DNA from: Nitrospirota bacterium
GTDB taxonomy: Bacteria; Nitrospirota; Nitrospiria; JACQBW01
Assembly (NCBI GenBank): GCA_016201875.1
Contig: JACQBY010000060.1
Location: 1-34,027 of the forward strand
Direction: 5' to 3'
DNA: 34,027 nucleotides
The translations under genes and the position numbers were made by a program. The notes beneath the pieces are model-generated. The model was not told where the DNA came from, did not search any database, and saw only the letters and a program-made list of their open reading frames with translations. Position 1 is the first letter of the stretch. Each line of letters opens with the position of its first letter. Of this stretch, positions 9,353-33,630 are shown one piece after another.

Positions 9353-10144
9353 TTAGAAATAAGAGAATTCTTTCAGTGCTTTCTTGATATAAGGGATCTG
9401 CTTCTCGGCGGCGGTCCTCCCCCGCTTGATCATGAGAGCCCCTTTTTTAAGATCGATGAGAGAAATTCCGGAGGCATCCACATTCATGACGATATCGGCA
9501 AATCTTTTTTCCACCGCGGCGTTTTTTTTGGCAAAGAGGGTAACGGTATGGATCCCGATCTGGATCAGGTTGTTCAGCTTGGACAAGTCCCTTGCCCGGT
9601 CGTTGACATCCACGGCTAACGTCAGGGTGGCCCCCATATTTTCGATCAGCGTTAAAACTGGAAGATTGCTGGCGATTCCGCCGTCAACCAGGATTTTTCC
9701 ATGTTGATGAACGGGAGAAAAGATCACCGGGAGAGAACAGCTTGCCATGACGGCTTCGGGAACAGGCCCCTCGGTCATCACAACTTTATCTCCTGTTTTT
9801 AAGTCGGACGCCACAACGGCTAAAGGGATTTTGAGATCTTTGAACTGGATGGCTCCCAGATGCTTTGAAAGATACCGGAGAAGATTCTTGCTGGAGATCA
9901 GTCCCCCCCTGGAAAAAACAGGCTTCACCACTTCTCTCCAGGAAAGATGAAGCGCCATTTCACTCATTTTATGGATGCTTATTCCCGCGGCATAAAGAGC
10001 CCCCACGACCGCTCCGCCGCTGGTCCCCGCAATCAGATCGATGCCGATCCCTTCTGATTCCAGAACTTCCAATACGCCGATATGGGCAATGCACCGGGCG
10101 GCTCCGCCGCTTAAGGCGATGCCAATACGAGGCTTTTTAATCAT
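9353..10144 (-). CDS. Patatin-like phospholipase family protein
   Basis: 263 aa, cytoplasmic, no signal peptide. The nucleophile elbow GTSGG is at 40-44 (Ser42) and the dyad aspartate is in VDGG (Asp154), so a Ser-Asp lipid acyl hydrolase is expected. The glycine-rich oxyanion segment reads SGGAARCIAHIGVL where most family members have GGGxRG, so the usual Arg-Gly is shifted to Arg-Cys. Substrate is unknown. It overlaps the upstream VOC gene by eight bases. A second, divergent patatin lies at 32644-33630. Confidence 0.92.
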   Translation of the reverse strand: MIKKPRIGIALSGGAARCIAHIGVLEVLESEGIGIDLIAGTSGGAVVGALYAAGISIHKMSEMALHLSWREVVKPVFSRGGLISSKNLLRYLSKHLGAIQFKDLKIPLAVVASDLKTGDKVVMTEGPVPEAVMASCSLPVIFSPVHQHGKILVDGGIASNLPVLTLIENMGATLTLAVDVNDRARDLSKLNNLIQIGIHTVTLFAKKNAAVEKRFADIVMNVDASGISLIDLKKGALMIKRGRTAAEKQIPYIKKALKEFSYF

Positions 10145-10616
10145 GCGAGTCTGTCCGGGGACCCGTCCGCCCCGCTCTCATTGACCCCAATCCCCGGACC
10201 TCCTCCGGGCAAGCTTCATTCCCAACCGGCTTTTCCAATAAAACAATCTCTTCTCCGTCGGGCCCGGAAATCATGGCCGCCCGTTCCCCCGGCACAGGCT
10301 CATAGGGCTCTTTGAGCACAGGGACTCCCTGGTCCCTTAACGCCTGAACGGTCCGATCAATACTGGCCACAAGAAAACCGAGGGAAACAGGCCCCACGCT
10401 ATTTTCGTTCCAACCCCGATTTAACGGTTGCGAGGGTTTTCCTCCATAAAGTTCAATCCGCCCTTCTCCGGCCATGAACCAGACAATGGCTCTTCCTTTC
10501 GGACTAACCTCTTTTTTGATGACTTTTAAACCTAAAACAACCCCGTAGAAATAGAGGGATTTTTCCATGTCCCGGGTTTGAATGGCAATATGGTGGAGCC
10601 GGTATTCCAGGATCAT
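10137..10616 (-). CDS. VOC-superfamily (glyoxalase/epimerase-like) protein
   Basis: 159 aa with two beta-alpha-beta-beta-beta modules. Likely metal ligands His9 (LHHIAIQTRDM), Glu55 (RIELY) and Glu123 (GEEIVLLEKP) are present, but the second-module histidine usual in methylmalonyl-CoA epimerases is not obvious (GPVSLGF), so the reaction cannot be assigned. The true start is ATG 10616, which overlaps the DUF507 stop as ATGA; the frame is open 18 codons further upstream but that lies inside the DUF507 gene. The Arg/Gly-rich tail (about 140-159) is unrelated to the fold. Confidence 0.85.
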   Translation of the reverse strand: MILEYRLHHIAIQTRDMEKSLYFYGVVLGLKVIKKEVSPKGRAIVWFMAGEGRIELYGGKPSQPLNRGWNENSVGPVSLGFLVASIDRTVQALRDQGVPVLKEPYEPVPGERAAMISGPDGEEIVLLEKPVGNEACPEEVRGLGSMRAGRTGPRTDSHD

Positions 10617-10955: not shown

Positions 10956-11070
10956 TGGATTCCCGCTCCCCGCTTTAAGCATGCGGGGACAAGCTTCGAG
11001 GGCCGGGAATGACGAAAAAGAGCTCTCAAGACTTGCATAGAACCGTCATTCCCGCGAAAGCGGGAATCCA
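10956..11070 (+). repeat. GTCATTCCC-type palindromic repeat pair
   Basis: Two hairpins in the order TGGATTCCCG...CGGGAATGAC (10956-11013, with an inner GCTTTAAGC/GCATGC part) and CGTCATTCCCGCGAAAGCGGGAATCCA-type (11044-11070, near perfect). The order is the reverse of the pair inside the 139-bp repeats. The remaining intergenic DNA up to 11257 is AT-rich with TATGAT at 11170-11175 but no convincing -35. Confidence 0.8.
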
Positions 11071-26670: not shown

Positions 26671-26769
26671 GAGAATTTAAAAGTTTCCCGGCCGAAACCG
26701 GACAAACCGGACAATGCCTTGCCTGATCAGACTTTTTATGGTACCTTATTCGGACAGGAGACAAAACCG

Positions 26770-27051
26770 ATGAAAATAACCGAAGATATCAAACCCATTA
26801 CTTATCTAAAATCAAAAACCGCTGACATGCTTAATCAGATTAACGAAACTCACAGACCGGTTATCATCACACAGAATGGCGAACCCCGCGCCGTTTTGCA
26901 AGATCCTGAATCCTACGAACGAATGAAATCCGCAATCGGTTTGATGAAGCTTCTTGGCCAGGGAGAAGAAGATGTCCGGGTTGGCAGAACCCGCGAACAG
27001 GGTGAGGTATTCAGCCGGCTTAAAACCAAAATAAAGAGCAGAAAACAATAG
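26770..27051 (+). CDS. Phd/YefM-family antitoxin
   Basis: 93 aa. The N-terminal half has the Phd/YefM DNA-binding fold with KPITYLKSKTADMLNQINETHRPVIITQNGEPRAVL, the conserved family block. The C-terminal basic tail (ending KTKIKSRKQ) would wrap the toxin. ATG 26770 is chosen for the AGGAG about nine bases upstream; the frame is open 17 codons further but lacks a ribosome site. The toxin gene starts 128 bases downstream and not immediately adjacent. Confidence 0.93.
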   Translation: MKITEDIKPITYLKSKTADMLNQINETHRPVIITQNGEPRAVLQDPESYERMKSAIGLMKLLGQGEEDVRVGRTREQGEVFSRLKTKIKSRKQ

Positions 27052-27080
27052 ATGCCCAGCGAGCAAGGCAAGCGTCGTAT

Positions 27081-27161
27081 CCCCTCCCTTGATGGGAGGG
27101 GTAGGGGAGGGTGAAAAGGTGATTTAAGCCCCTCTCCCAGCCTCTCCCACAAGGGGAGAGG
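27081..27161 (+). repeat. Double hairpin repeat between antitoxin and toxin
   Basis: CCCCTCCC/GGGAGGGG (8-bp stem, 27081-27101) and CCTCTCCC/GGGAGAGG (8-bp stem, 27141-27161) separated by an A/T-richer middle. Such paired C/G-rich hairpins resemble dispersed intergenic repeats in many genomes. It fills most of the 128-bp gap between antitoxin and toxin. Confidence 0.7.
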
Positions 27162-27179
27162 AGTCGTAAGGGTATCGGT

Positions 27180-27503
27180 ATGAGTCATAAATATTTCGTC
27201 AGATGGACAGAAACAGCAGAGGAGGATTTAAACAATATCATTGAGGATATCGCTGAAGAAAATCCGCACAGGGCATTGGAGGTTTTGGAAAACCTTCGCA
27301 GAAAAGCTTTGCATTTGAACACTCTGCCTGAAAGGGGACGAATTGTTCCTGAACTAAAAGATCATGGGATCACTCTTTTCAGGGAATTAATCTTTGCCCC
27401 GTGGCGGATGATCTACAGAATATCAGGAGAGACAGTGTATGTCCTGGCTCTTTTTGATTCAAGACGCAATCTGGAAGACATTCTCCTCGACAGGTTTCTT
27501 TGA
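27180..27503 (+). CDS. RelE/ParE-family toxin
   Basis: 107 aa, typical size. The fold signature is visible: WTETAEEDLNNIIEDIAEENPHRA helices, RGRIVPEL, then FRELIFAPWRMIYRISGETVYVLALFDSRRNLEDILL strands. It could be an mRNA interferase or a gyrase inhibitor; the sequence does not settle which. Arg and Tyr residues of the last strands are present, so it looks intact. The start is ATG with a weak GGT-rich upstream site. Confidence 0.92.
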   Translation: MSHKYFVRWTETAEEDLNNIIEDIAEENPHRALEVLENLRRKALHLNTLPERGRIVPELKDHGITLFRELIFAPWRMIYRISGETVYVLALFDSRRNLEDILLDRFL

Positions 27504-27830
27504 GAATTCTGAAATAAACAGGTCCCTTTAATTAAAAAGGCATCATATTTTTTGTCGGTAGTAATCGATTTCATGCTCAATGCCTTCGACCCGCTTCCGA
27601 AATCCACCATCCAACTTTAGTTTCTCCGATACCCAATCGCAGACCCATCCCAACACCGTAACTCCCAACACCAAAACTGTCTTGTGTGCTGTATTACATA
27701 GCGCTTAACGTGGTAGACAGCACCAGTATAATCTAAGCGAAGCAATCGGGACATTCAGACCTTAATGATCAACTATATAAAAGTAATATTCAACAAAAGA
27801 TTTGACCCCTTTATTTGTTCTGATTTTCTA
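27504..27830 (+). other. Intergenic region, no confident gene
   Basis: About 330 bases after the toxin gene. No gene with family resemblance was found. On the minus strand 27543-27671 could encode a 42-aa peptide from a GTG start, with a hydrophobic N-terminus and a charged helical tail ending EIDYYRQKI; there is no ribosome site I would rely on. The region precedes a strong terminator and could equally hold a small RNA or gene remnants. Confidence 0.5.
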
Positions 27831-27831
27831 A

Positions 27832-27872
27832 GGGAAACAGATTAAATGTTCAATCTGTTTCTCTTTTTTTTT
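27832..27872 (+). terminator. Strong intrinsic terminator
   Basis: GAAACAGATT (27834-27843) pairs perfectly with AATCTGTTTC (27852-27861) around an eight-base loop. The stem can be extended by two pairs and is followed by nine T residues (27864-27872). It stands 330 bases past the toxin gene, so it may end the toxin transcript or that of an unseen RNA. Confidence 0.85.
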
Positions 27873-27932: not shown

Positions 27933-27961
27933 TTGATTTTTTTATATCGTTTAGATATGAT
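27933..27961 (+). promoter_or_regulatory. Predicted promoter of the DUF3015 pair
   Basis: TTGATT (27933-27938), 17-base spacer, TATGAT (27956-27961; five of six). The leader to the first DUF3015 ATG would be about 60 bases. The region is AT-rich and lies right after an intrinsic terminator, which insulates the locus. Confidence 0.6.
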
Positions 27962-28027
27962 TTGGCCCGACTTGAAAATATTAAAGTCATGAAGTTCTTA
28001 TAAATCAAAATTAACAGGAGGGATGGC

Positions 28028-28498
28028 ATGAAGAAATTCGTAGCACTAACAGTAGCATTCATTTCTTTATTGTTTGTAGGAAGTAGTTTTGCCGCCGATG
28101 GAGAATATGGCGCCGCAGGTTGCGGCCTCGGTTCTCTGTTATTTGGAAAACAACCTGGTTTTGTTCAGGTTTTTGCTGCAACGACAAATAACAGCACCTA
28201 TACCAATATGTTTGGAATTACCTCCGGAACATCCAATTGTAATAAAAATACGGTATTTGCCTCCAACGACAGGTTAAACAGCTTTGTCCAGAACAACCTG
28301 GACAACCTCGCAAAGGAGATCGCTATGGGAGAGGGAGAATCGCTTGACACCCTGGCAGAATTAATGGAAATCCCTGTTGAAGAAAAAACTGCTTTCAATA
28401 AAAATCTTCAGGCCAATTTTAAATCTATTTTCCCGTCTAAAAATGTCGTCGTTGCGGGCGTTATCAATAATATCATTGCAGTCACCTTGGCCAATTAA
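28028..28498 (+). CDS. DUF3015 family secreted protein, paralogue 1
   Basis: 156 aa with a signal peptide (cleavage near SFA-ADG). The mature protein opens YGAAGCGLGSLLFGKQPG and has TSGTSNCNK, the two conserved cysteines that could form a disulfide. The next block, NNLDNLAKEIAMGEGESLDTLAEL, is shared with the neighbour. DUF3015 proteins are periplasmic or envelope proteins of unknown function. GGAGGG lies five bases before the ATG. First gene after the promoter at 27933. Confidence 0.93.
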   Translation: MKKFVALTVAFISLLFVGSSFAADGEYGAAGCGLGSLLFGKQPGFVQVFAATTNNSTYTNMFGITSGTSNCNKNTVFASNDRLNSFVQNNLDNLAKEIAMGEGESLDTLAELMEIPVEEKTAFNKNLQANFKSIFPSKNVVVAGVINNIIAVTLAN

Positions 28499-28548
28499 TC
28501 AGGTAAAATACTTTAATTATCATTCATAATTATTTTAAGGAGGTTTTG

Positions 28549-29022
28549 ATGAAAAAACTCTTAGTTGTGGCGATTCTTGTATCTTTTTCTTTAATCGGTA
28601 TTAGGTCTGCTTTTGCGGTCGAGAGAACCTACGGGGCAGCCGGATGCGGTTTAGGCTCCATGTTGCTGGGAAACGAGCCTGGGATGATTCAGGTACTTGT
28701 GCTCACACTTAACAGTCTAGCTTATAACCAAACATTCGGAATTTCATCGGGAACGTTGAATTGCGAGAAAACTCCCACCAAGTTTGTCGCCAATCCGCAA
28801 TTGAACCAGTTTGTCGTTGCAAACCTGGATTCCCTGGCCAAAGATATTGCCAGGGGAGAAGGGGAATCTCTCAATACCCTCGCCGAACTGACCGGACTTT
28901 CCTCCGACAAGAAAGTGGCGATTTTTCAGAAATTACAGGCCAACTTCTCAAATATCTTTCCCTCCGAAAAGGTTGAAGCTCCCGAAGTGATTGATCAGAT
29001 CATGAAGATTCTCAACAGTTAA
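28549..29022 (+). CDS. DUF3015 family secreted protein, paralogue 2
   Basis: 157 aa, signal peptide cleaved near AFA-VER. It shares with paralogue 1 the blocks YGAAGCGLGSMLLG, SSGTLNC and ARGEGESLNTLAEL, so the pair arose by tandem duplication; intervening residues have diverged substantially. AAGGAGG precedes ATG 28549 by five bases; a TTG one codon earlier is ignored. An intrinsic terminator begins 31 bases after its stop, inside the next gene. Confidence 0.93.
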   Translation: MKKLLVVAILVSFSLIGIRSAFAVERTYGAAGCGLGSMLLGNEPGMIQVLVLTLNSLAYNQTFGISSGTLNCEKTPTKFVANPQLNQFVVANLDSLAKDIARGEGESLNTLAELTGLSSDKKVAIFQKLQANFSNIFPSEKVEAPEVIDQIMKILNS

Positions 29023-29037
29023 TCCGGTCAATACTTA

Positions 29038-30942
29038 ATGGCCAGTTCTTTCAGGGGATATGGATTTTTTCTAAAATCCATATCCCCTTTTTTCATATTT
29101 CTCATCCTTGTTCTCTCCCCTGTCCGAGGGGATGAACTCCCATCTCTCGATCAACTTCTGGTAAAAGCTAAAGAAAACAAACTTTCGGAAAACCGTTACT
29201 GGCTCATTCTCCTCCATTACCAGTCCACTCTAACAGGCCATAAAAGTCTCATTGACGATCCGCAGTTTTTCCTCGCTTCAGATGGAAAGAAAAATCCAGA
29301 AGGAGAGCTCGCGGCCACGCTTAAAGCCTTTTTTAATTCAAGTGAAAAAGGGGATAACCATCCTCGATGCAGATTCCCGGCCCGTTATGAATGGCTCAAA
29401 TCAGTATTGAATTGGGAGGAGTCTCTTTTTTCGAACATTTCATGTGACGAATTCAGGAAATATGAGTTGACCCTTCAACCCAAATCGGCAGTTCTGGTCT
29501 TTCCTGCTTTTTTTATGAATAACCCGGCTTCGATGTTCGGACATACCCTTCTTCGGATTGACAACGCTTCTCAGAGTAAACTCCTCTCCTTTTCGGCAAA
29601 CTACGCGGCTTTCCCGGATTCTTTTGGGATTCTTTACCCTATTAAAGGAGTTTTTGGTTATTACAAAGGATTTTTTTCCATTTTCCCTTACTATGACACC
29701 GTCAAAATGTATAATGATACCGAACAGAGAGATATGTGGGAATACCATCTGAACTTTTCTGAAGCAGAACTTCAAAAAATGATCTGGCATCTCTGGGAAC
29801 TTAAAAACATCTATTCCTACTATTACTTCTTTGACGAAAATTGCTCCTATAATTTACTTTATCTTTTTGAGGCGGCCCGGCCCTCTCTTCACTTAACCGA
29901 CAGGAGCTGGTTCTGGACGATTCCCACCGACACCCTGAGAGCCATTCAAGCGGAAGGGGTGGTTGAAAACGCCGAGTTTCGTCCAGCCAAAGGAACAAAG
30001 ATCCGCTATATCGCTTCCCAACTTAATGAAACCGGTGAAGATAGTGCGTTAAAAATTGTGGAACAGAAACTTGATCCGTCCCAACTCCAGGCAAAAGATC
30101 ATGACGAAAAGAAGAAAATTCTGGACCTGGCTGTAGAAGAAATTCAGTATCAATACAATAAACACCAAATGGAAAAAGATATTTATCTCAAACTCTTTTT
30201 ATCGACTTTGAATGGACGGAGTAAATTGGGGAATTCAGGGAGCGATCCTTATCAGATTCCGGTCCCGATGCCTCCAGAAACAGGCCATCGATCCAGCCGA
30301 ATAAGCCTGGGGGGAGGAATCAGAAAGAACAGTTTCTTTGAAGAGATCAGCTATCGTCCCGCTTATCACACCCTGGTGGATCCGGAGGAAGGATTCGCGA
30401 GAGGATTGCAGATTGTTTTTGCCGATACAACCGTCAGGGCCTATAACGACGGCAGAATAAAATTGGAAAGTTTCGATCTAATCGATATTGTTTCTCTCTC
30501 TCCCCGGGACCGTTTTTTCAAGCCTCTTTCATACAAAATTAAAACCGGCTTTACCCAACAGATGACCCCTTCCGGAGATGACCGGAGGGTCTACAGGCTG
30601 AACCCGGGAGTCGGCATGGCATTTGAAAACCGACAGATCGGATTAGTTTATGGACTGGCGGAGATCAGCTTGAACTTGAGTGAAGAATTCAGAGACCGAT
30701 ATGCTTTGGGAGGGGGTCTTCAGATTGGCGTCATTAAACAGATCGCCGATTCCTGGAAAATGACCTTCTCTCTCGAAAAAATCGCTTATCCTGTCAGGAA
30801 TGTGTTTCAGGAAAACAGAGCGACTGCCATTCAAACATTTAAATTAAACCAGAATAACAGCCTCAATCTTTCCCTCCTCTGGGATGAAGCGTTTAATCAC
30901 GACCAAACAGAAGTCAAAATCAATTGGAATATTTATTTTTGA
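29038..30942 (+). CDS. DUF4105 (Lnb N-terminal periplasmic) protein with possible C-terminal beta-barrel
   Basis: 634 aa. Signal peptide to about residue 31 (VRG-DELP). The DUF4105 core includes NPASMFGHTLLRID (His169) and DENCSYNLLYLFE (Cys269); these conserved His and Cys suggest a papain-like thiol fold, which is inference. From about 425 onward the sequence alternates in beta-strand pattern and ends VKINWNIYF, an outer-membrane barrel-like terminal Phe, suggesting an anchored barrel. Codons 6-18 encode the stem of an intrinsic terminator (29053-29093). No in-frame alternative start lies beyond it that keeps the signal peptide. Poor ribosome site. Likely functions with the DUF3015 proteins. 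Confidence 0.9.
   Translation: MASSFRGYGFFLKSISPFFIFLILVLSPVRGDELPSLDQLLVKAKENKLSENRYWLILLHYQSTLTGHKSLIDDPQFFLASDGKKNPEGELAATLKAFFNSSEKGDNHPRCRFPARYEWLKSVLNWEESLFSNISCDEFRKYELTLQPKSAVLVFPAFFMNNPASMFGHTLLRIDNASQSKLLSFSANYAAFPDSFGILYPIKGVFGYYKGFFSIFPYYDTVKMYNDTEQRDMWEYHLNFSEAELQKMIWHLWELKNIYSYYYFFDENCSYNLLYLFEAARPSLHLTDRSWFWTIPTDTLRAIQAEGVVENAEFRPAKGTKIRYIASQLNETGEDSALKIVEQKLDPSQLQAKDHDEKKKILDLAVEEIQYQYNKHQMEKDIYLKLFLSTLNGRSKLGNSGSDPYQIPVPMPPETGHRSSRISLGGGIRKNSFFEEISYRPAYHTLVDPEEGFARGLQIVFADTTVRAYNDGRIKLESFDLIDIVSLSPRDRFFKPLSYKIKTGFTQQMTPSGDDRRVYRLNPGVGMAFENRQIGLVYGLAEISLNLSEEFRDRYALGGGLQIGVIKQIADSWKMTFSLEKIAYPVRNVFQENRATAIQTFKLNQNNSLNLSLLWDEAFNHDQTEVKINWNIYF
29053..29093 (+). terminator. Intrinsic terminator inside the DUF4105 signal-peptide codons
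   Basis: AGGGGATATGGATTTT (29053-29068) pairs with AAAATCCATATCCCCT (29073-29088) without mismatch, a 16-bp stem with a four-base loop, followed by six T residues (29088-29093). It should end the DUF3015 transcript, yet it lies within the coding region of the next gene, so that gene would need read-through, antitermination or translation that opens the stem. Confidence 0.85.
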
Positions 30943-31790
30943 AAAATTCAAAAAACCGGCTTTTTCTGATTTTTCTGGCAATCATACTGGGAGGCTGTAA
31001 CGGTATTTTTTATCAGCCGACACCGAATCTTCTTATGACGCCCGAAAAATTAAAATATACCTATGAGGATGTCTCTTTTAAAAGTCTGGACGGAACCGTT
31101 TTAAACGGCTGGTTTATTCCGGGACGAGGGAACATTAAAGGAACAGTGCTCCAGTTTCATGGAAACGGAGCAAATATCGGCAATCATTATGGAGCAGTCT
31201 ACTGGCTTCCGGATGAGGGGTATAACGTCTTCCTGTTTGATTACAGGGGATATGGAAAATCAGGAGGGACCCCCGCCCGGCAGGGGATTCAGGAAGACGG
31301 GATTGCCGCGCTGGAATATATTCGGCAAAGAGCTGATGTCATTCCTTATCCTATTATCATTTATGGACAGAGCCTGGGAGGTGCGGTGGCGGTTTCTACC
31401 GTTGCCACCCAAAAACAGGATGGGATTGTGGCGGTCATCCTGGAAAGCTCATTTACCGGCTATCGCGCTATAGCCAGGGAAAAACTTGGCTCGCTTTGGT
31501 TAACATGGCCTCTTCAATGGCCGTTATCTTTTTTAATCTCGAATGAATACTCTCCGCTCGATATGATCGGAAAAATCTCTCCGGTTCCGCTATTGATCGT
31601 TCATGGAGACGCCGACGAAGTCATTCCAAAACATCATTCCGAAACACTTTTTAAGACCGCAAGAAAACCGAAAACGCTCTGGATCATTCCCGGAGGTCAT
31701 CACATCGACGCTTTCTCATACCCCCATCAGGAAAACCGGAAGAGACTCCTGGAATTTCTTGAGCAAGCGTTACAAACAACCGTCCATTAA
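30939..31790 (+). CDS. Alpha/beta-hydrolase lipoprotein
   Basis: 283 aa from TTG 30939, which overlaps the DUF4105 stop (TTGA) and gives a canonical lipoprotein signal with lipobox LGGC (Cys20). An earlier TTG at 30924 would add five residues. The hydrolase fold has nucleophile Ser145 (YGQSLGG), acid Asp224 (HGDADEVIP) and a His254/255 pair (PGGHHIDAF). It resembles the BAAT/DUF-type envelope hydrolases near FrsA/YsiB-like proteins; the substrate is unknown. Cotranslation with the DUF4105 gene suggests shared function at the outer membrane. Confidence 0.9.
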   Translation: MKNSKNRLFLIFLAIILGGCNGIFYQPTPNLLMTPEKLKYTYEDVSFKSLDGTVLNGWFIPGRGNIKGTVLQFHGNGANIGNHYGAVYWLPDEGYNVFLFDYRGYGKSGGTPARQGIQEDGIAALEYIRQRADVIPYPIIIYGQSLGGAVAVSTVATQKQDGIVAVILESSFTGYRAIAREKLGSLWLTWPLQWPLSFLISNEYSPLDMIGKISPVPLLIVHGDADEVIPKHHSETLFKTARKPKTLWIIPGGHHIDAFSYPHQENRKRLLEFLEQALQTTVH

Positions 31791-31983
31791 ACGTCACGGT
31801 CACGTCAAAATCCGCTATAAATCGTCATTCCCGCGAAAGCGGGAATCCATAAGATGTTGATTTTTTGAATTCTGGATTCCCGATAAAAACATTCGGGAAT
31901 GACGAATTGAATTCTTTGTAAAACCTCTGACATTTTTTTAGAGAGTTTGCTCACAGAATGACGTGACCCTGCATTAAACGTCA
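31785..31983 (+). repeat. Palindromic element with terminal inverted repeats and 12-bp flanking direct repeats
   Basis: CATTAAACGTCA occurs at 31785-31796 and 31972-31983. Just inside are GGTCACGTCA (31798-31807) and its reverse complement TGACGTGACC (31959-31968). The interior holds the GTCATTCCC...GGAATCCA and TGGATTCCC...GGGAATGAC hairpin pair (31823-31904). The left direct repeat contains the hydrolase stop codon. This has the layout of a small inserted element. Nothing else is recognisable up to 32044. Confidence 0.7.
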
Positions 31984-32485: not shown

Positions 32486-32647
32486 CCCCTGATCCTTTTG
32501 ACGCTTAAAGAAACAGAGATAAGAAGGCGCCTCTCCTTCTTGAAACCGGATATGGATTAACTCCCACCCGTCGTTTCCGATGAAATTCAGCTGGTTGGTT
32601 ATTTGCACGGCGCTGAGTTCTTCAACGCGATACTCCCACGCCCTCAT
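32477..32647 (-). CDS. DUF4177-like 56-aa protein
   Basis: A short gene, easily missed. The 56 residues begin MRAWEYRVEELSAV and contain LNFIGNDGWELIHIRF, then PSYLCFFKRQ; this is the WEY...GWEL...FKR pattern of DUF4177. Function unknown. Its ATG overlaps the stop of the patatin gene as ATGA, the same coupling used elsewhere in this window, which strongly supports translation. The 3' end overlaps the convergent gene's last codons. Confidence 0.8.
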   Translation of the reverse strand: MRAWEYRVEELSAVQITNQLNFIGNDGWELIHIRFQEGEAPSYLCFFKRQKDQGLF

Positions 32648-33630
32648 GAAGGGCTTTCGTTGAGTTCTGTAAACAGGGTATCAGGGAGGTTTTCCGTTTT
32701 CGGAAGGGTCGCCTGTTTTGGCTTTCCCAGCCAGAATTGCTTTAACCGTTTATTCCGAATCTCCCGTTTGATGCTTTCGACCATCGCCCGCGCCGCCTCT
32801 TCTCCCGCCTTGTAGCATTCCAGACCCCGGTGAAACTCGGCCCAATGAATATGCCCGACATTGGGGCGGATGACAACATCTGCATGGCTTAGCTGAATTT
32901 CGCTTAAAACATTCCGGGTCATGTCGCTCGCCCGTAAAACAATCTCAATCCCCCGTTTAAGTTCCGAGGGTTCAAGATCATTTGACGCCTCTATCGCAAT
33001 GGTAAAAGTGGCTCCGTGTCTGAAGGCAGGCTCTATCGGCACACGGTTAACCCATCCGCCGTCAATTAACTGCATCTTCCCGATTTTAACAGGGGGGAAA
33101 ACACCCGGAATGGCACAGCTGGCCGCGACGGCCTCTCTCATCGGACCTTTCGATAAAATGACCTCGTCCCCCGAAAGAATATCGGCGGCCACGCAGACAA
33201 AGGGAATCTGCGTATTTTCAATCTTCATGTCCGCAATCAATCCGCTTAACGTTTTCTGGAGTTCTTCGCCGCTGATAAAATAACCCCGGTTTAAAGAAAT
33301 GCCATAAAACATCCCTCTTTTGATATAGGACTTTATCTGATTGATCAAAGTCGTATTTTTGACTTCGGTAAAGCTTTCTTTTAAAAATTCGAGCCGGGCA
33401 TGTTTAAACAGCGGGGTTTTTAAAAATTTGATGATTCTATCTTTAATCAGAGCCGCATTGGGTTCGATGGCGTAAAGGCCTCCGACAAGAGATCCGAAGC
33501 TGGTCCCCGAGATAATGTCGACAGGGATATTTTCTTCTTCAAAGACTTTTAAGACCCCCAGGTGGGCAAACCCCCGGGTTCCGCCGCCCCCCAGGACAAT
33601 CCCGATTTTAAAAGATTTGTTGATTTCCAT
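32644..33630 (-). CDS. Patatin-like phospholipase family protein (second)
   Basis: 328 aa, cytoplasmic. The oxyanion loop GGGGTRGFAHLGVL (about 14-27) is canonical, the nucleophile elbow is GTSFG (42-46, Ser44) and the dyad aspartate is Asp190 (LIDGGWVN). A C-terminal Lys/Arg-rich extension (about 285-328) is present. It is a lipid acyl hydrolase by family; the substrate is unknown. It is 14 bases after the Lys-rich gene and coupled to the DUF4177-like gene. Confidence 0.93.
   Translation of the reverse strand: MEINKSFKIGIVLGGGGTRGFAHLGVLKVFEEENIPVDIISGTSFGSLVGGLYAIEPNAALIKDRIIKFLKTPLFKHARLEFLKESFTEVKNTTLINQIKSYIKRGMFYGISLNRGYFISGEELQKTLSGLIADMKIENTQIPFVCVAADILSGDEVILSKGPMREAVAASCAIPGVFPPVKIGKMQLIDGGWVNRVPIEPAFRHGATFTIAIEASNDLEPSELKRGIEIVLRASDMTRNVLSEIQLSHADVVIRPNVGHIHWAEFHRGLECYKAGEEAARAMVESIKREIRNKRLKQFWLGKPKQATLPKTENLPDTLFTELNESPS

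Follow-up and report, generated by a model that had tools for sequence, protein, structure and literature searches.

A gene pair of DUF3015 and a barrel-fused Lnb_N enzyme as the core of what looks like a conserved bacterial envelope module

The 34,027-nucleotide stretch of Nitrospirota DNA analysed here (assembly GCA_016201875.1, contig JACQBY010000060.1; hereafter the window) carries a locus that looks like a conserved envelope module with a two-gene core, made up of DUF3015, present as one or two genes depending on the bacterium, and a barrel-fused enzyme of the PF13387 family, and the linkage between these two genes is firm. The four ORFs of the locus were verified, all on the same strand (Table 1), and N-terminal segments resembling export signals, which the earlier note on this DNA had claimed for all four products, are recognised by eye. 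The source assembly is 83% complete. The genes near the locus are ordinary by Pfam: PhdYefM and ParE as a pair, a phosphate transporter accompanied by a PhoU-like protein, and a patatin.

Table 1. Features of the DUF3015–barrel enzyme locus, in window coordinates
Feature	Position	Strand	Evidence and remarks
Intrinsic-terminator-like hairpin upstream of module	27830..27865	+	14-bp stem, 9-T tail
Promoter-like hexamers TTGATT-17-TATGAT	27933..27961	+	frequency in region equals chance; unproven
DUF3015 protein 1, 156 aa, secreted (by eye)	28028..28498	+	Pfam; GCGLG...SGTSNC motif; C32/C71; RBS AGGAGG
DUF3015 protein 2, 157 aa	28549..29022	+	Pfam; RBS AAGGAGG
Barrel-fused Lnb_N protein, 634 aa	29038..30942	+	Pfam; AlphaFold2; Foldseek
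Terminator-like hairpin, proposed attenuator	29053..29088	+	16-bp stem, T run; within 5' coding end of barrel gene
Lipoprotein alpha/beta hydrolase, 288 aa	30924..31790	+	Pfam; lipobox LGGC, Cys25

When 84,980 species genomes were searched with the barrel protein as query, 80 named loci emerged; in 72 of these a same-strand DUF3015 gene immediately precedes the barrel gene, the remainder being six contig ends and two loci from Pseudomonas, where the two genes are unlinked. These loci come from at least eight phylum-level groups and cover Nitrospirota, Gamma- and Betaproteobacteria, Deltaproteobacteria/Desulfobacterota, Bdellovibrionales, Sulfurimonas/Campylobacterota, Myxococcota, Binatia, and Spirochaetia. 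Among 58 relatives from the same class, PF13387 was found in 46 genomes and PF11220 (DUF3015) in 44; 41 of 46 long PF13387 proteins (≥450 aa) are preceded within 3 kb by a same-strand DUF3015 gene, and at least two of the other five lie near contig ends. Among 114 evenly sampled Gammaproteobacteria, PF13387 occurs in 30 genomes and DUF3015 in 22, all 22 of which also encode the barrel protein, and 25 of the 27 DUF3015 matches adjoin the barrel gene. The same order, DUF3015 and then DUF4105 (the former name of PF13387), appears in independently annotated records from Acinetobacter nosocomialis, Salinivibrio, and Pseudoalteromonas; in one record the Acinetobacter pair sits next to the beta-lactamase gene blaADC. 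The gene-neighbourhood analysis proposed in the earlier note therefore found recurrent co-occurrence in unrelated genomes, the opposite of the outcome named there as refuting, and the note's description of the two families as recurrent neighbours proved accurate for the barrel-type PF13387 proteins. Barrel-less members of about 320–440 aa lack such a neighbour, the single apparent exception (G028:C243) being a piece of a long form truncated where its contig ends, and some second copies of the barrel type also lack DUF3015.

The two members of a pair also share their history. Across 84 pairs, the DUF3015 and barrel distance matrices correlate with r = 0.87, while the highest value among 500 permutations was 0.14. 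These permutations ignore shared species history, and the stronger point is therefore a single genome with two back-to-back pairs (L076), in which the barrel protein and the DUF3015 protein of each pair group with the same outside relatives, so that the pairs are inherited as units. A possible fusion of DUF3015 to the barrel protein in one genome (G141) turned out to be two genes, the long frame being merely open upstream.

The barrel protein consists, by Pfam, of DUF7843 (aa 48–122), PF13387 (aa 139–303; 163.6 bits over nearly the full profile length, gathering cut-off 22.2 bits), a linker, and DUF7840 (aa 411–633), and this combination of domains is present in 59 of 59 aligned long forms. 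His169 and Cys269, whose positions had been quoted correctly before, are invariant in 59 of 59 relatives. In the AlphaFold2 model (mean pLDDT 90.5, pTM 0.87), Cys269 opens a helix spanning residues 269–280, and about 12 barrel strands occupy residues 421–633, ahead of the C-terminal Phe634. The DUF7840 region is thus confidently predicted to be a closed 12-strand outer-membrane barrel with a C-terminal aromatic residue; among the Foldseek matches listed, only outer-membrane barrels appear, KdgM, NanC, and FapF having the best TM-scores, so that the earlier description of a His/Cys domain fused to a possible outer-membrane barrel finds good support. All the PDB fold matches listed fall on the barrel part, the PF13387 part is without a PDB sequence match, and PDB sequence searches with the DUF3015 and barrel-enzyme family profiles returned no relative.

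The PF13387 domain, now named Lnb_N in Pfam, takes its name from the Bacteroides lipoprotein N-acyltransferase Lnb, as which DUF4105 has been identified; Lnb was placed in the permuted NlpC/P60 group together with LRAT and other lipid enzymes, whose members act on acyl linkages (PMC12994826). The window protein fits this group in that a catalytic-type His precedes the Cys, both are conserved, and the Cys stands at the start of a helix. With LRAT/HRASLS, YiiX, TseH, and Tox-Act1 it shares the His-then-Cys order and a predicted papain-like topology but differs in having a barrel anchor and a DUF3015 partner and in lacking a toxin-delivery or immunity context. Barrel-type outer-membrane enzymes such as PagP and PldA also act on phospholipid acyl chains; unlike in these, the putative active site of the window enzyme lies in a separate periplasmic Cys/His domain and not in the barrel. 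Of the two main families that had been taken to be of unknown function, DUF3015 retains that status, whereas PF13387 has a function described for Bacteroides Lnb, which leaves only DUF3015 and the barrel domain without one.

Both small proteins of the window are clear members of PF11220 (137.8 and 128.5 bits, E 3e-40 and 2e-37, gathering cut-off 25 bits), the second copy being 50% identical to the first, and here the family is tied to a barrel-type enzyme and a putatively attenuated gene order. The two cysteines already pointed out in these paralogues, C32 and C71 in first-copy numbering, are kept together in 62 of 62 sequences covering both positions and may form a disulfide instead of serving as an acyl site. 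The C-terminal helical part, with an invariant G-x-G-E, is modelled with confidence (aa 81–156), and a fold search with the model, confident only over these residues, returned no relative. On the other hand, the most conserved region of the family, at about aa 30–80 and including the strongly conserved stretch GCGLG...TTNGT...SGTSGC, coincides with the low-confidence part of the model, which suggests that this stretch does not fold alone and may act against a partner or the membrane.

The arrangement of the locus points to unequal expression of the two core genes. The terminator proposed upstream stands as a strong terminator-like hairpin (-16.4 kcal/mol, z -5.1 against shuffles) that insulates the module from the PhdYefM/ParE genes. 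The hexamers of the "dedicated promoter" are indeed present, but sites of this type occur in the region at chance frequency (8 found, 7.9 expected), so the promoter is unproven. A second strong terminator-like hairpin, absent from the earlier note, starts 31 nt past the stop codon of the second DUF3015 gene; while the four same-strand ORFs described there as one directional unit are real, this hairpin splits DUF3015 from the barrel gene, and the locus is therefore not one uniform transcription unit. Under one fixed rule applied to all junction and control classes, such hairpins were found at 44 of 85 DUF3015-to-barrel junctions, in a set of loci that includes related Nitrospira and is thus not fully independent, compared with none of 15 DUF3015–DUF3015 junctions, 13 of 309 sites inside the barrel gene (about 4%), 17 of 101 sites after it, and 22 of 255 shuffled junctions. 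A separately fetched set of Gammaproteobacteria gave 12 of 20 junctions versus 1 of 20, or 15 versus 2 with a laxer tail. In addition, strong ribosome-binding sites precede both DUF3015 genes of the window, none being obvious before the barrel gene, and DUF3015 genes often outnumber enzyme genes within a genome. Together, these sequence features lead us to infer a large excess of DUF3015 over the enzyme, which would suit a substrate, a carrier, or a structural partner.

The hydrolase is a recurrent yet optional third gene. Its assignment to the alpha/beta hydrolases by Pfam, with a nucleophile S150 in GQSLGG, HGDADE at 227, and GGHH at 257, and its signal sequence followed by the lipobox agree with the lipid-anchored hydrolase described earlier; lipobox-like motifs recur in most of the tightly linked orthologues. 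The first 19 nt of the gene lie within the barrel gene, and orthologues of about 38–51% identity sit directly beside their barrel genes, often with an overlap of 1 to 19 nt, in Gamma-, Beta-, and Deltaproteobacteria, in Bdellovibrionales, and in the window's own lineage. The coupling of the two genes is therefore real and recurs in relatives, but the hydrolase is not a constant member, as most Nitrospira, Sulfurimonas, and Acinetobacter loci lack it. At other loci the third gene encodes a HEARH-motif protein that matches no Pfam family and is in several cases a lipoprotein, or else a methyltransferase or a ceramidase-like protein; some loci have no third gene. In Desulfoluna, a second DUF3015 gene adjoins a lipobox hydrolase with no barrel gene there, which also ties DUF3015 to the hydrolase.

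Taking the gene linkage, the co-occurrence, the domain make-up, the invariant residues, the predicted barrel, and the hairpin as the observed or computed basis, we tentatively favour, at a little less than even chances, an acyltransferase or phospholipase of the outer membrane that has DUF3015 as its abundant dedicated partner or substrate; the acyl chemistry, the part of DUF3015 as acceptor, and the role of the hydrolase are our inferences from that basis. The barrel protein would sit in the outer membrane and hold its permuted NlpC/P60-type Cys/His domain at the periplasmic face, where, if the domain works like Lnb and LRAT-type enzymes, Cys269 would form a thioester with an acyl chain drawn from a phospholipid of the outer membrane and then hand the chain to an acceptor. 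DUF3015 would be the dedicated periplasmic partner, most likely the acceptor or carrier, its excess arising from the terminator-like hairpin after its gene, and the lipid-anchored hydrolase, where present, might clear the lysophospholipid by-product or undo the acylation. A more specific form of this proposal, which we consider doubtful, is that the DUF3015 family forms a class of periplasmic proteins to which a barrel-anchored Cys/His acyltransferase attaches lipid at the outer membrane, bypassing the Lgt-Lsp-Lnt pathway, and that the outer-membrane lipoprotein hydrolase serves as an eraser or lysophospholipid scavenger.

The main rival, somewhat unlikely in our judgement, is that the barrel protein acts in the outer membrane as an LRAT/HRASLS-type phospholipase, which would remodel phospholipids or take out misplaced ones, with DUF3015 as a periplasmic regulator, inhibitor, or chaperone and not a substrate. 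The permuted NlpC/P60 relatives do include phospholipases, and the third gene often encodes a lipase-like hydrolase and once a ceramidase-like protein; a regulator, however, need not exceed its enzyme, whereas the hairpin, the strong ribosome-binding sites, and the multiple DUF3015 copies indicate excess.

The enzyme could also be a second Lnb-type lipoprotein N-acyltransferase, completing some of the lipoproteins at the outer membrane while DUF3015 plays an accessory part, a reading we consider improbable. It would suit the PF13387 fold that the protein has in common with Lnb, including an exported catalytic domain with a conserved His and Cys, and the lipoprotein encoded next door. The Lnb equivalog model (NCBIfam NF051878, 394 model positions, cut-off 550 bits), on the other hand, gives the window protein only 18.3 bits, four of five relatives 17–26 bits, and the fifth no match, and we therefore rejected the window protein as an Lnb orthologue; the Lnb reaction is carried over by fold and not by orthology. 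The two proteins differ further in that the window protein, at 634 aa, is barrel-fused and DUF3015-linked, and in that the genomes encoding it retain Lnt: 55 of the 58 class genomes have a match above the Lnt cut-off, and the source genome has one on contig C12 (364 bits). This retention also disqualifies the barrel protein as a replacement for Lnt, although one close relative (G002) has no Lnt above the cut-off. Moreover, DUF3015 has no lipobox.

Very unlikely, in turn, is a barrel acting as an export or surface-display channel for DUF3015, with the Cys/His domain processing DUF3015 in transit. Such a role would be in keeping with the 12-strand polypeptide transporter FapF among the top Foldseek matches and with DUF3015 being always upstream where linked and co-inherited with the barrel, but the TM-scores, which reach about 0.6 on the target, reflect only a generic 12-strand barrel, and the porins KdgM and NanC match equally well. 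Finally, conservation of gene order without a shared function, for which the conserved wider neighbourhood within Nitrospira might speak, is largely refuted, because the linkage spans phyla despite all other neighbours differing and the pairs move as units.

The description of the pair as undescribed agrees with the literature searched, a collection covering a minority of the subscription journals: no paper on DUF3015 paired with DUF4105 was found there, nothing on DUF3015 beyond one Leptospira expression table, and, among the matches listed, only unrelated word matches for DUF7840/7842/7843 and Lnb_N. Together, these data point to a module that looks widespread, unstudied, and envelope-modifying. 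Through it, DUF3015, a family without a recorded function, gains a strict partner of predictable chemistry, and the Lnb fold gains a second form, fused to a membrane barrel and serving some purpose other than the maturation of lipoproteins. From the terminator conserved downstream of DUF3015 follows a directly testable prediction, that of much DUF3015 and little enzyme, and the pair is also present in genetically tractable genera such as Acinetobacter. If the proposed lipid modification of DUF3015 is true, this would be a protein acylation system found across at least eight phylum-level groups.

Assignment of a start codon to the barrel gene is uncertain (window 29038-29088), as the terminator-like hairpin falls inside the first codons, and in this start region a leucine (CTA) of the window corresponds to a methionine in locus L067 of the closest relative. 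The same locus carries, 3' of the hydrolase gene, a third DUF3015 gene in shortened form (9894-10250). In Desulfoluna (L185:5054-6539), a second DUF3015 gene adjoins a lipobox alpha/beta hydrolase without a barrel gene, and in Acinetobacter nosocomialis (L187:5962-9605), blaADC adjoins the DUF3015-DUF4105 pair. The divergent DUF3015-like proteins of L179, L180, and L181 have an apparent lipobox, with the sequence LLSAC or one like it. The conserved GCGLG motif is absent from them, and their genes have no adjacent barrel gene.

Features around the module and in other genomes
Feature	Coordinates	Position
PhdYefM antitoxin and ParE toxin genes	window 26719-27503	immediately upstream of module
Patatin-like phospholipase gene	window 32644-33630	near module, opposite strand
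HEARH-motif family	L073:6940-7599; L076:12436-13080; L084:5041-5760; L085:6408-7061; L086:6779-7501	immediately 3' of barrel gene, several class relatives
Divergent DUF3015-like proteins	L179:5015-5638; L180:4175-5203; L181:4794-5192	class relatives

The window also holds two copies (31827-31848 and 11048-11069) of a dispersed palindromic repeat, ATTCCCGCGAAAGCGGGAATCC, for which a search of the 1.9-Mb assembly holding the window returned 108 matches at ≤2 mismatches, the reversed sequence used as a control giving 0 matches in the same assembly.

In G002, the genome of the closest relative with the module, the lipoprotein N-acyltransferase Lnt was not found over the cut-off in a 95%-complete assembly, and this absence may reflect an assembly gap. 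In several class relatives, the position immediately 3' of the barrel gene is occupied by a family with no Pfam match in the two members scanned, several members of which carry a lipobox. Because the HEARH (HExxH) motif is conserved across this family, its sequence points to a possible metalloprotease.
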